This document shows positions 24,632 to 27,892 of a stretch of 64,000 bases of DNA, piece by piece; within the stretch, counting starts at the first letter, position 1, and each line of letters starts with the position of its first letter. The notes below the pieces were generated by a model. The model had not been told where the DNA came from, did no database searches, and worked only from the letters and a program-made list of their open reading frames with translations. This DNA comes from Caulobacteraceae bacterium (GTDB taxonomy: Bacteria; Pseudomonadota; Alphaproteobacteria; Caulobacterales; Caulobacteraceae). The position numbers and the translations under genes are program-made. The stretch spans positions 1 to 64,000 of the forward strand of contig CANJME010000001.1 in the NCBI GenBank assembly GCA_947475875.1, written 5' to 3'.

Positions 24632-24635
<4 letters not shown>

Positions 24636-25528
24636 TTGACGATCTCGGTCCCGGCGGCGCGGTCGTCCCGAGCCCGGCGGAATTCCAGCAGTCTCACGAC
24701 CCAGATCGAAATCTCGTAGAGCAACACCAGCGGGATCGCCAGCGACAGCTGGCTGATCGGGTCGGGCGGGGTGAAGATTGCGGCGATCACAAAGACGATG
24801 ACGATGGCGAATCGTCGGAAGCTCGAAAGCTGTTTGGACGTGACCAGCCCCGCCATACCGACAAGCGCCAACACCACCGGCAGCTGGAAGCAGATACCGA
24901 AGGCCAGGATCAGCTTGATGGAGATCGCCAGATACTCCGATATCTTGGGCGTCATGTGGATGGTAATGGCGCCCAGCTGCTGCTGGTTGAGGCTGAACCA
25001 CAAAACGAACGGCAGCATCAGGAAATAGACCAGCGCCGCGCCCATGACGAACAGCACCGGCGAGGCGATCAGGAACGGCGCAAACGCCAGCCGCTCTTTC
25101 TTGTAGAGACCCGGAGCCACGAAACGATAGAGCTGCCAGCCCAGGATCGGGAAGGTAAGGACGATGGCGCCGAAAGCGGCGATCTTCACCTTGACCAGGA
25201 AGGTTTCCAGCACGGCCGTCGAGATCGTTTCCAGCTCCTGGCCGGGAAGTGGCGGCGGCAGAGTCGTCAGCCCGAGGACGCCCTTGAGCATCGCCAGATT
25301 GAACGGGTTGCTGTGACCCAGCTGATGCTGCAGGGCGATCAGGCCCTGGGCGATCCCCAGCGGGCGCAGCAGAAACTCCAGGATCGGATTGACGAAGGCG
25401 AACGACAGAAAAAAGCCCAGGATCAGCGCGATCACGCAGATGAACAGCCGTCCGCGAAGCTCGATCAGGTGTTCGAGCAGCGGCGCGCGCGAGCGCTCGA
25501 CATAGGCTTCGTCATCCGGCGCGCTCAT
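24632..25528 (-). CDS. tatC: Sec-independent protein translocase TatC
   Basis: Core membrane component that recognises twin-arginine signal peptides. 298 residues, six hydrophobic helices. The family signature LLEHLIELRGRLF near residues 18-30 and FMLPFVLWFS-type later helices are present. The C-terminus is longer than in E. coli, with a charged tail (RRARDDRAAGTE). The ATG overlaps the tatB stop by four bases. Order on the minus strand is tatA, tatB, tatC. Confidence 0.97.
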
Positions 25529-25971
25529 GTGACCGTCGCCTTTTTCGCGCGGGGCTTTTTCGGCCTGGGCGCCGGGGACTCAAGTTCAAGGGGAGCGCCG
25601 TTGGCCTCGGCGGTCGCGACCTCACCCATCCAGGCGGCTGGATCATAGATCGCTTCGCCGGTCGGATCGTGGATTCCCTGGCTGATCTGGTCGGCCGTGT
25701 CTGTCATGGCCTCGGCAATGCCGCTGACCGGATCGGTGGCCATCTGCGTGGCCTTGGCCTTCATCGCCTCGACCTCCTTGCGAAGGGTGTCGAGCTCGGA
25801 CTGGCGGGCCATGTCGTCGAAGCTGGCGCGGAAATCGGCCGCCATGCGCCGGGCGCTGCCCAGGAACTGACCCACGCGCTTCATGATCGCCGGCAGATCC
25901 TGCGGCTTGAATACGATCAGCGCGACCACCGCGATGATCAGGTATTCGGTTCCGCCAATATCAGGAAACAT
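25525..25971 (-). CDS. tatB: Sec-independent protein translocase TatB
   Basis: 148 residues. One N-terminal transmembrane helix (MFPDIGGTEYLIIAVVALIVF) with a conserved Glu near residue 9, the hinge FKPQDLP, and then a long amphipathic helix (ARRMAADFRASFDDMARQSE). The C-terminus is Pro/Lys/Ala-rich (RPKKPRAKKATVT). Works with TatC in signal-peptide recognition. It is coupled to tatC by a four-base overlap. Confidence 0.94.
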   Translation of the reverse strand: MFPDIGGTEYLIIAVVALIVFKPQDLPAIMKRVGQFLGSARRMAADFRASFDDMARQSELDTLRKEVEAMKAKATQMATDPVSGIAEAMTDTADQISQGIHDPTGEAIYDPAAWMGEVATAEANGAPLELESPAPRPKKPRAKKATVT

Positions 25972-26036
25972 GCGTCGGGCAGGCCTTTTGAGCCAGACGT
26001 GTCAGGGCCTGGCGTGAACTTCAGTGGGGTCGGAGA

Positions 26037-26240
26037 CTAGCTCTCTTTGTCTTTGTCTGCCGGCGGCAGGGCGGTGTCGGCCTTCTCGGCCGGCTTGTCG
26101 TCGTCCTTCAGTCCTTCCTTGAAGGCCTTGATGCCCTTGGCCGCGTCGCCCATCAGGCCAGACAGCTTGCCGCGGCCGCCGAAGACAACCGCCACGATGA
26201 GAAGCACGATAAGCCAGTGCCAGATGCTCAGACCACCCAT
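26037..26240 (-). CDS. tatA: Sec-independent protein translocase TatA
   Basis: 67 residues: a single N-terminal membrane helix ([16 protein letters not shown]), a short hinge with Gly, then the amphipathic helix [17 protein letters not shown], and an acidic/Lys tail. It forms the pore-like assembly of the Tat pathway. AGGAG lies 12 bases before the ATG, slightly far. It is first of tatA-tatB-tatC; the 216-base upstream gap to scpB contains four TTGTTACA repeats (26341-26443). Confidence 0.95.
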
Positions 26241-26279
26241 AGTGTTTTATTACTCCTGCTCGCGCGGACCTGACCCGCG

Positions 26280-26291
26280 ACGAAATTTCGT
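26280..26291. promoter_or_regulatory. 12-base perfect palindrome upstream of tatA
   Basis: ACGAAATTTCGT is a perfect palindrome 40 bases before the tatA start codon, in the likely leader or promoter region. It is operator-like, but I cannot assign a regulator. Chance occurrence is possible. Confidence 0.25.
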
Positions 26292-26340
26292 GATGTTGGG
26301 TACATCATAGGTCATCTGCTATCCGCATGCCACCAAAGCA

Positions 26341-26443
26341 TTGTTACAACTGGCTGGGGCAAATTGTTACAACTCGGAGGGCGAACATCGGCGCCTCCAG
26401 GGCGCCTGTTGTTACAGCCTCGCGGCGGGCGCGTTGTTACAGC
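26341..26443. repeat. Four spaced TTGTTACA[A/G]C repeats in the scpB-tatA gap
   Basis: Four direct copies of a ten-base word: 26341-26350 and 26364-26373 (TTGTTACAAC), 26409-26418 and 26434-26443 (TTGTTACAGC). Start-to-start distances are 23, 45 and 25 bases, so the copies come as two pairs, each with its own final variant. They lie in the 216-base gap between scpB and tatA, 100-200 bases upstream of tatA. The array is AT-rich islands in GC-rich spacer. A regulator-binding array for the tat operon is the simplest idea; no known regulator is recognised. Confidence 0.6.
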
Positions 26444-26456
26444 CAGGCGGGCACCC

Positions 26457-27092
26457 CTAGGTGTCTTCTTCCAGAAAATCGCGGTGGAATTCGGGGTTCT
26501 CGCCGGGCTCCAGGGGATCTTCGGCGTCGGTATCGGCCCGCGAGGGGTCCGGCAGGGCAAAACCGGGCGGCAGTTCGGCGTCGAGCAGGCCCAGCTGCCG
26601 CATCTCGGCCGCGCCGGGCAGATCCCCAAGGCTCGCCAGGCCATAGTGTTCCAAGAAGGCGTCGGTGGTGCCGAAGGTTACCGGCCGGCCGGGCGTCCGC
26701 CGCCGGCCGCGCATCTTGACGAGGTCGAGTTCAAGCAGGGTGTCCAGGGTGCCGCGGCTGGCTTGAACGCCGCGGATGGCCTCGATCTCGGCGCGGGTGA
26801 CCGGCTGGTGGTAGGCGACGATGGCCAGCGTCTCCTGGGCGGCTTTCGAGAGCTTGCGCGGTTCCTCCCGCTCCAGCGTCATCAGGAAGGCCAGATCGGC
26901 GGCGGTCTGGAAGCGCCAGCGACCGGCTACCTCGACCAGTTCGACGCCGCGCCCGGTATAGGCCTCTTTCAACCCGTCGATGGCGGCCAGAATGTCCGCG
27001 TTGGCCGGCAGGCGGTCGGCCAGATCCTTGACGCTCAGGGGTTCGGCCGCGGCGAACAACAGCGCCTCGACCATGCGCTCGGCCTCGCTCAC
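26457..27092 (-). CDS. scpB: Segregation and condensation protein ScpB
   Basis: Winged-helix partner of the SMC condensin complex. 211 residues, starting with GTG that overlaps the scpA stop (GTGA). Signatures: MVEALLFAAAEPLSVKDLA near the start, and ETLAIVAYHQPVTRAEIEAI with RGVQASRGTLDTLLE in the second winged helix. The acidic C-terminus (EEDT) is variable in the family. It follows scpA directly, as in most bacteria. Confidence 0.95.
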   Translation of the reverse strand: MSEAERMVEALLFAAAEPLSVKDLADRLPANADILAAIDGLKEAYTGRGVELVEVAGRWRFQTAADLAFLMTLEREEPRKLSKAAQETLAIVAYHQPVTRAEIEAIRGVQASRGTLDTLLELDLVKMRGRRRTPGRPVTFGTTDAFLEHYGLASLGDLPGAAEMRQLGLLDAELPPGFALPDPSRADTDAEDPLEPGENPEFHRDFLEEDT

Positions 27093-27892
27093 TCCGCGGC
27101 CTCCAGCATGCGGGCGCGCAGGTAGATCTCGGCGAAATGCTCCAGCTGTTGGGCTTCCAGCGAGCCCTCCTTCACCAGCTCCAGGCCCGCCGACAAAGTC
27201 GAGGCGACAAACGAAGCCCGGCTCGGGCTACCCTCGGTGGCCGAGGGCGCCAGGCGTCCCAGCGCCGTCCAGGTGCGCAGGCGTGGCAAGGCGCCGCGCA
27301 GTTGCTCGCGCGCATCGTCCAGCGCGTATACCCTTGGGGCCGCCGGGTGATAATGCCGCGCCGCCTCGCGCTTCACCTGGGCTGAATAGGCCTGGACCAG
27401 GGCGAACAGATTTCCCTCAAACCGCGTGGACGAGACGATCTTGACCTCCTGCGGATCACCGCGCGGGAAAACGTCACGCTTCAACTGCGACCGATCCTTG
27501 AGCGCGTCAGACGCTTTGCGGATCGCATCCAGGCGGGCCAGGCGGAAGGCCAGCTGCGCAGCGATTTCCTCGGCCGGCGCCTCATCGCCTGAAGCCTTGT
27601 CAGCCTTGGGCAGCATCAGGCGCGATTTCAGATACGCGAGCCAGGCGGCCATCACCAGATAATCAGCCGCCAGGGAAAACCGCAGCGAACGGGCCGTCTG
27701 AATGAACGCGAGGTACTGTTCGGCCAGTTTCAGCACCGACAGCTTCAGAAGGTCGACCTTCTGGTTGCGGGCGAGCGCCAGCAAAAGGTGCAGCGGGCCT
27801 TCAAAGCCATCGATATCGACGACCAGAGCTTGTCCGTCCTCGGCCGCTTCGCCGGCGGCCGAAAAATCGAGGTCGTTGTCTTCCTTCTTCAT
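27089..27892 (-). CDS. scpA: Segregation and condensation protein ScpA
   Basis: Kleisin that bridges the SMC heads. 267 residues; signature FEGPLHLLLALARNQKVDLL near residues 29-48, followed by the DYLVMAAWLAYLKSRLMLP helix. The C-terminal winged-helix part is present (SLEAQQLEHFAEIYLRARML). Overlaps nagZ upstream and scpB downstream by four bases each, so the three genes are translated together. Confidence 0.95.
   Translation of the reverse strand: MKKEDNDLDFSAAGEAAEDGQALVVDIDGFEGPLHLLLALARNQKVDLLKLSVLKLAEQYLAFIQTARSLRFSLAADYLVMAAWLAYLKSRLMLPKADKASGDEAPAEEIAAQLAFRLARLDAIRKASDALKDRSQLKRDVFPRGDPQEVKIVSSTRFEGNLFALVQAYSAQVKREAARHYHPAAPRVYALDDAREQLRGALPRLRTWTALGRLAPSATEGSPSRASFVASTLSAGLELVKEGSLEAQQLEHFAEIYLRARMLEAAE

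Follow-up and report, generated by a model that had tools for sequence, protein, structure and literature searches.

A lineage-restricted cluster of repeated words upstream of tatA, a candidate operator array for tatABC in Caulobacteraceae

Genes and features of the scpB-tatA gap

The window, i.e., the whole stretch of 64,000 nucleotides analysed here, comes from the Caulobacteraceae genome G000 and carries a tat cluster on its minus strand, composed of tatC (298 aa, 24632..25528, Pfam PF00902), tatB (148 aa, 25525..25971, PF02416), which is the second TatA/B/E-family protein of the cluster, and tatA (67 aa, 26037..26240, PF02416). The upstream neighbour on the same strand is scpB (211 aa, 26457..27092, PF04079), and ScpA is also found among the neighbours by Pfam assignment. 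In the gap between scpB and tatA, the plus strand holds four copies of TTGTTACARC, at 26341, 26364, 26409, and 26434, exactly where an earlier note on this DNA had placed them and, as that note had seen, in two variants, one per pair: TTGTTACAAC at 26341-26350 and 26364-26373, and TTGTTACAGC at 26409-26418 and 26434-26443. Read in the direction of the genes, the distal pair is GCTGTAACAAC and the proximal pair GTTGTAACAAT, and 12 bases are common to both copies within each pair. The copies start 23 bases apart in the first pair and 25 in the second, with 45 bases from copy 2 to copy 3; the 23- and 25-base spacings had been described as close to two helical turns, but at 10.5 bases per turn, 23, 45, and 25 bases amount to 2.2, 4.3, and 2.4 turns, so the array is not strictly in phase.

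The gap had also been described as holding little else, which is not the case. A consensus scan of 26200-26500 returned a single candidate promoter, GTGGCA-N18-TATGAT on the minus strand (26304..26333, 9 of 12 consensus matches, against a mean of 0.1 in shuffles), and a GC-rich inverted repeat lies between the two pairs (26390..26406, consensus scan, shuffle mean 0.2); the latter is terminator-like by pattern alone, and on the plus strand only. Counted back from the -10 element, itself assigned by pattern, the core of the copy nearest to the promoter (GTTGTAACAA in gene direction, minus strand, 26341..26350) starts at 39 bases and that of the second proximal copy (again GTTGTAACAA, 26364..26373) at 62, while the distal copies (GCTGTAACAA, 26409..26418 and 26434..26443, minus strand) lie 107 and 132 bases away. 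The nearest copy stops before the -35 element, and all four lie clear of the -35, the -10, and the start region. The core, TTGT-A-ACAA, is near-palindromic. Counting the two copies found in the related genome G001 (see below), symmetry extends to 15 bases in a single tat copy out of six, which is from G001, the other five having no extended dyad symmetry, and the centre base is A (gene direction) in all six, which makes a directional and a symmetric site equally likely.

We fetched 110 scpB loci (30, scpB being present in 60 of 60 genomes searched, plus 80 of 134), of which 91 had scpB together with a recognisable tatA match and 19 had no tatA match; the 91 correspond to 84 unique gaps. Under a lenient threshold and without a control, 82 of 89 gaps (duplicates L036 and L037 left out) have a hexamer that matches TTGGCG at four or more of six positions, 17-19 bases before a TAT element. 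The family form reads TTGGCG-N18-TATATT, with a spacer of 18 in most of the gaps displayed, and on these grounds we take it to be the tatA promoter of the family. Likeness of the -35 to TTGGCG is 4/6 in G000 (GTGGCA), 5/6 in G001 (TTGGCC), and 6/6 in G002, another member of the genus. As a separate observation, TTGTAACGA, which differs from the array core by one base, is present in the tatA start region of 18 of the 84 unique gaps (L010, L038, and other Caulobacter); it sits 15-17 bases past the point where TATATT begins in 17 of these 18 gaps (the distance could not be measured in the remaining one) and never upstream of the -35.

Rarity and clustering of the word

The earlier note had proposed searching the genome for clusters of the motif. 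In such a search, the exact word TTGTTACARC is found five times in the G000 assembly (2,853,523 bases, 49 contigs), four of them in the array, against eight occurrences of the reversed control word. Allowing up to one mismatch, the window holds five places against a shuffle mean of 1.41, five being reached in 2 of 100 shuffles; the four exact matches in the window are the array itself. Pairs of TGTAACA with a spacer of 9-38 bases occur in G000 at the tat array only (none for the control), once in G001, before the same gene, and not at all in G002.

One has to keep in mind that the array was picked out by eye from 64 kb and that local repeats do arise by chance: in order-3 Markov simulations, 8-mers present three times within 110 bases came up at a mean of 0.7 per simulated window, compared with 5 in the real one. 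However, no 8-mer reached four copies within 110 bases in any of the 100 simulations, whereas one did in the real window, namely the array word, and the probability of finding four of the five copies within 110 bases is about 1e-12 by a rough estimate. An independent pair also stands at the corresponding position of a sister species, and we consider it extremely unlikely that the array is a product of chance.

Conservation in relatives

G000 and G001 are sisters in the ScpB tree (support 99/84; 53 rows, with loci up to L060 only), G002 being a deeper member of the same genus. Among the 84 unique scpB-tatA gaps, TGTWACA is found in two, that of the window and that of G001; the array words are absent from the gap of G002, where the tatA promoter is present, and from the other 81 unique gaps scanned in the family, the word scan having also taken in 14 gaps of at least 330 bases. 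Conservation of the array before tatA, which had been put forward as a check, thus holds in one of the two other genus members and fails in the 82 other unique gaps of the family.

In G001 there are two copies, which precede the -10 by 39 and 63 bases and match the proximal pair of G000 at 39 and 62; the distal copies have no counterpart there. When both gaps are aligned, all 18 core columns are identical, compared with 28 of the 48 other columns upstream of the -10, a contrast that is somewhat inflated since the alignment was anchored by the array words; from the -10 onward, 45 of 62 columns are identical. The equal distance of 39 bases is the cleaner argument, with the reservation that it is counted from a -10 assigned by pattern. 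As three genomes of the genus were compared, conservation rests on one comparison, G000 with G001. The earlier note had held that a motif neither conserved in relatives nor clustered, and common genome-wide, would be chance; the word proved rare, and the array is kept in G001.

Search for a regulon

We then looked for the word elsewhere in the three genomes. Degenerate sites (RTTGTWACAAY, up to one mismatch) were found at 15, 10, and 9 places in G000, G001, and G002, respectively, versus 37, 34, and 27 for the reversed control, and exact TTGTNACAA at 7, 5, and 3 versus 8, 9, and 9. In G000, the 11 RTTGTWACAAY places outside the array comprise 7 in open frames and 4 in gaps (C2, C6:113857, C10, C23), and of the 8 such places in G001, the 5 inspected comprise 4 in frames and 1 in a gap (C27), where open frames are longest-ORF pictures and not gene calls; this tally excludes C1, C6:489, and C11 of G001 as well as all 9 places of G002, and all exact TTGTNACAA places were inspected. 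G002 has a single TTGTTACAA (L187, G002:C49:12150), located in a gap some 58 bases ahead of a frame that starts like a signal peptide. The earlier note had also suggested iterated sites for a structural, nucleoid-type protein, a suggestion that finds no support here, as many sites would then be expected elsewhere and near-matches are no commoner than those of the reversed control.

Individual candidates for regulon membership were considered and set aside. The isolated site G000:C2:109534 is symmetric over 17 bases and lies downstream of an amidase-like gene, but no site follows the same gene in G001 or G002. The amidase-like gene is followed by a PAS-like gene in G001 (L172, C3), which appears, by eye, broken and shortened in G000 (L171, C2). 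Another site, before a TetR-glycosyltransferase gene, looks by eye like a part of that gene's own promoter. The gene itself (G000:C6, L143:4878-6278) is one frame of 466 aa joining a TetR-type N-terminal HTH (PF00440) to a family 4/group 1 glycosyltransferase, an unusual regulator-enzyme fusion, the N-terminal part of which is matched by frames of similar length in G001 (L175) and G002 (L176).

A further candidate was a group of redoxin-type paralogues. Sites with at most one mismatch stand in 2 of 23 upstream stretches, exact at -91 in G001:C27 and with one mismatch at -88 in G000:C23, and are suggestive of co-regulation. The other 21 stretches have no site. The comparison was post hoc, and we do not make co-regulation of the paralogues our main account. 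The G000 orthologue of the G001:C27 gene has no upstream site. These stretches belong to 23 of the 24 family matches, G002:C140 being left out and one stretch being truncated; the matches come from six genomes (9 in G000, 9 in G001, 5 in G002, 1 in G003, and none in G004 or G006). Members of this family (L138:490-2511, G001:C27) have AhpC-TSA/Redoxin as their sole Pfam match and a long C-terminal part beyond it.

On a wider scale, TTGTAACA-N12-20-TGTAACAA was found in 3 of 199 family genomes (G000, G001, and G098, the G098 match being inside an open frame) versus 1 of 199 for the control, and the paired words in 9 of 385 genomes across the class versus 10 of 385 for the control (counted from the table). 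Apart from G000, the eight class pairs are all in stretches of 28-46% GC, seven inside open frames and one in a gap, and no tatA was recognised by eye beside them. In an unrelated alphaproteobacterial genome, three close TGTWACA words stand in a gap between two frames (L211, G331:C6:414019), at 43% GC, and may be there by chance. A regulator of tatABC could have a single target.

Interpretation

The earlier note had read the four words as a binding array for a regulator, and on the sequence this is still the best reading, given the rarity of the word, its clustering next to the promoter, and the distances of 39 and 62/63 bases kept in G001. We put at about even the chances that a sequence-specific DNA-binding protein, a putative regulator of tatABC, uses the four words as its operator array, because a rare word is clustered just upstream of the promoter and kept in register in the sister species. 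The protein would bind the near-palindromic TTGT-A-ACAA core. Since the nearest copy ends before reaching the -35 and leaves it uncovered, the protein would most likely activate tatABC, by aiding polymerase to use a promoter with a -35 (GTGGCA) that deviates from the one typical of the family. With the -10 taken to start at -12, the proximal copies would be centred at about -48 and -71, positions that we take to favour an activator over a repressor. A weak -35 needing help would not be common to both species, since that of G001 is 5/6 family-like.

The same evidence of rarity, clustering, and conservation would apply if the words were repressor operators, the bound protein, perhaps by spreading or bending the DNA, shutting the tatA promoter. 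Several operator copies can serve cooperative repression. However, the position of all four copies clear of the promoter elements speaks against it, and Tat is reported to be essential in Caulobacter crescentus (PMC12911857), which makes strong repression less likely; we regard this account as unlikely. It is also rather doubtful that the copies are neutral short repeats born of local duplication, with no protein reading them: the 12 bases shared within each pair, the different copy number in G000 and G001, the restriction to one lineage, and the motif scan that returned no regulon would all fit, but the sequence between the copies is unrelated, and G001 has retained both the words and their spacing from the -10, against a background of 20 differences in the 48 other columns upstream of that element.

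An element acting on readthrough from scpAB, as a barrier or an RNA signal placed between scpAB and the tat unit, would suit the location of the array, which takes up the gap separating these two same-strand units and contains the inverted repeat. The terminator-like match is on the plus strand, however, opposite to the gene direction, no Rfam match was obtained in 25900-27200 up to an E value of 1, and the RNA fold is no better than that of shuffled sequences (z 0.03, equalled or beaten by 98 of 200), so that we hold such an element to be very unlikely. A structured RNA leader or riboswitch in the tatA transcript was discarded on the same Rfam and folding results (no match, z 0.03) and on the position of the array, upstream of the promoter.

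Coming back to the putative operator array, it is probably functional and, as far as seen, restricted to G000 and G001. It would have arisen in their common ancestor or been lost from G002, with a copy number now at four versus two, and recent acquisition is the best reading of this distribution. Going one step further, a lineage-restricted regulator may have taken over tatABC by way of an array dating from the G000-G001 ancestor, with tatABC perhaps as its sole target, a proposal that we make only tentatively and would not bet on; if true, a probably essential export machine would have been rewired recently. Should the array be a case of real regulation, tatABC would not be simply constitutive in the G000-G001 lineage; the copy numbers of 0, 2, and 4 in three related species would then form a small natural series on the origin and growth of an operator array.

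Comparison with known systems

TatA, TatB, and TatC have been reported as essential in Caulobacter crescentus, with the export of PBP2 proposed as a reason, in a paper of which the part available does not address the native regulation of the tat genes (PMC12911857). An envelope-related alphaproteobacterial regulator that also reads repeated words is CenR of Rhodobacter sphaeroides, whose motif is given as TGA-N8-TGA in the part of the source available (PMC9275681). By eye, neither TGA nor TCA is present in 26341-26443, and we did not retain the CenR regulon as an explanation, with the caveat that its motif comes from Rhodobacter.

In the open-licence literature, we found no work on a tatABC promoter, regulon, or ChIP-seq in Caulobacter, which does not imply its absence from print, and none on transcriptional regulation of tatA or the Tat translocase by a response regulator in alphaproteobacteria. 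Searches with TTGTAACAA gave nothing that looked relevant among the matches listed (judged from the listing), TGTAACA alongside regulatory terms gave no match, and the matches listed for “tatA promoter” concern TATA promoters or promoter prediction.

Two other known sites were compared with the array. The CtrA box is TTAA-N7-TTAA, and no TTAA is present, by eye, in 26341-26443. FadR-type GntR operators follow TNGT-N3-ACNA and resemble the tat copies in that an odd centre is flanked by TTGT and ACAA, but all six tat copies have one base, not three, between GT and AC. Further known boxes considered, and not favoured here, are those of PhoB, DnaA, RstA, AraC-type regulators, and Rex, together with ECF-sigma -35 elements. 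Iterated operator arrays upstream of bacterial sigma-70-type promoters are a known kind of element in general, which the tat array resembles by its several copies of a short word in the same orientation just upstream of a -35, and from which it differs by its restriction, as seen so far, to two sister species and by a copy number of four in one and two in the other; it is, in that sense, a new example of a familiar kind of element.
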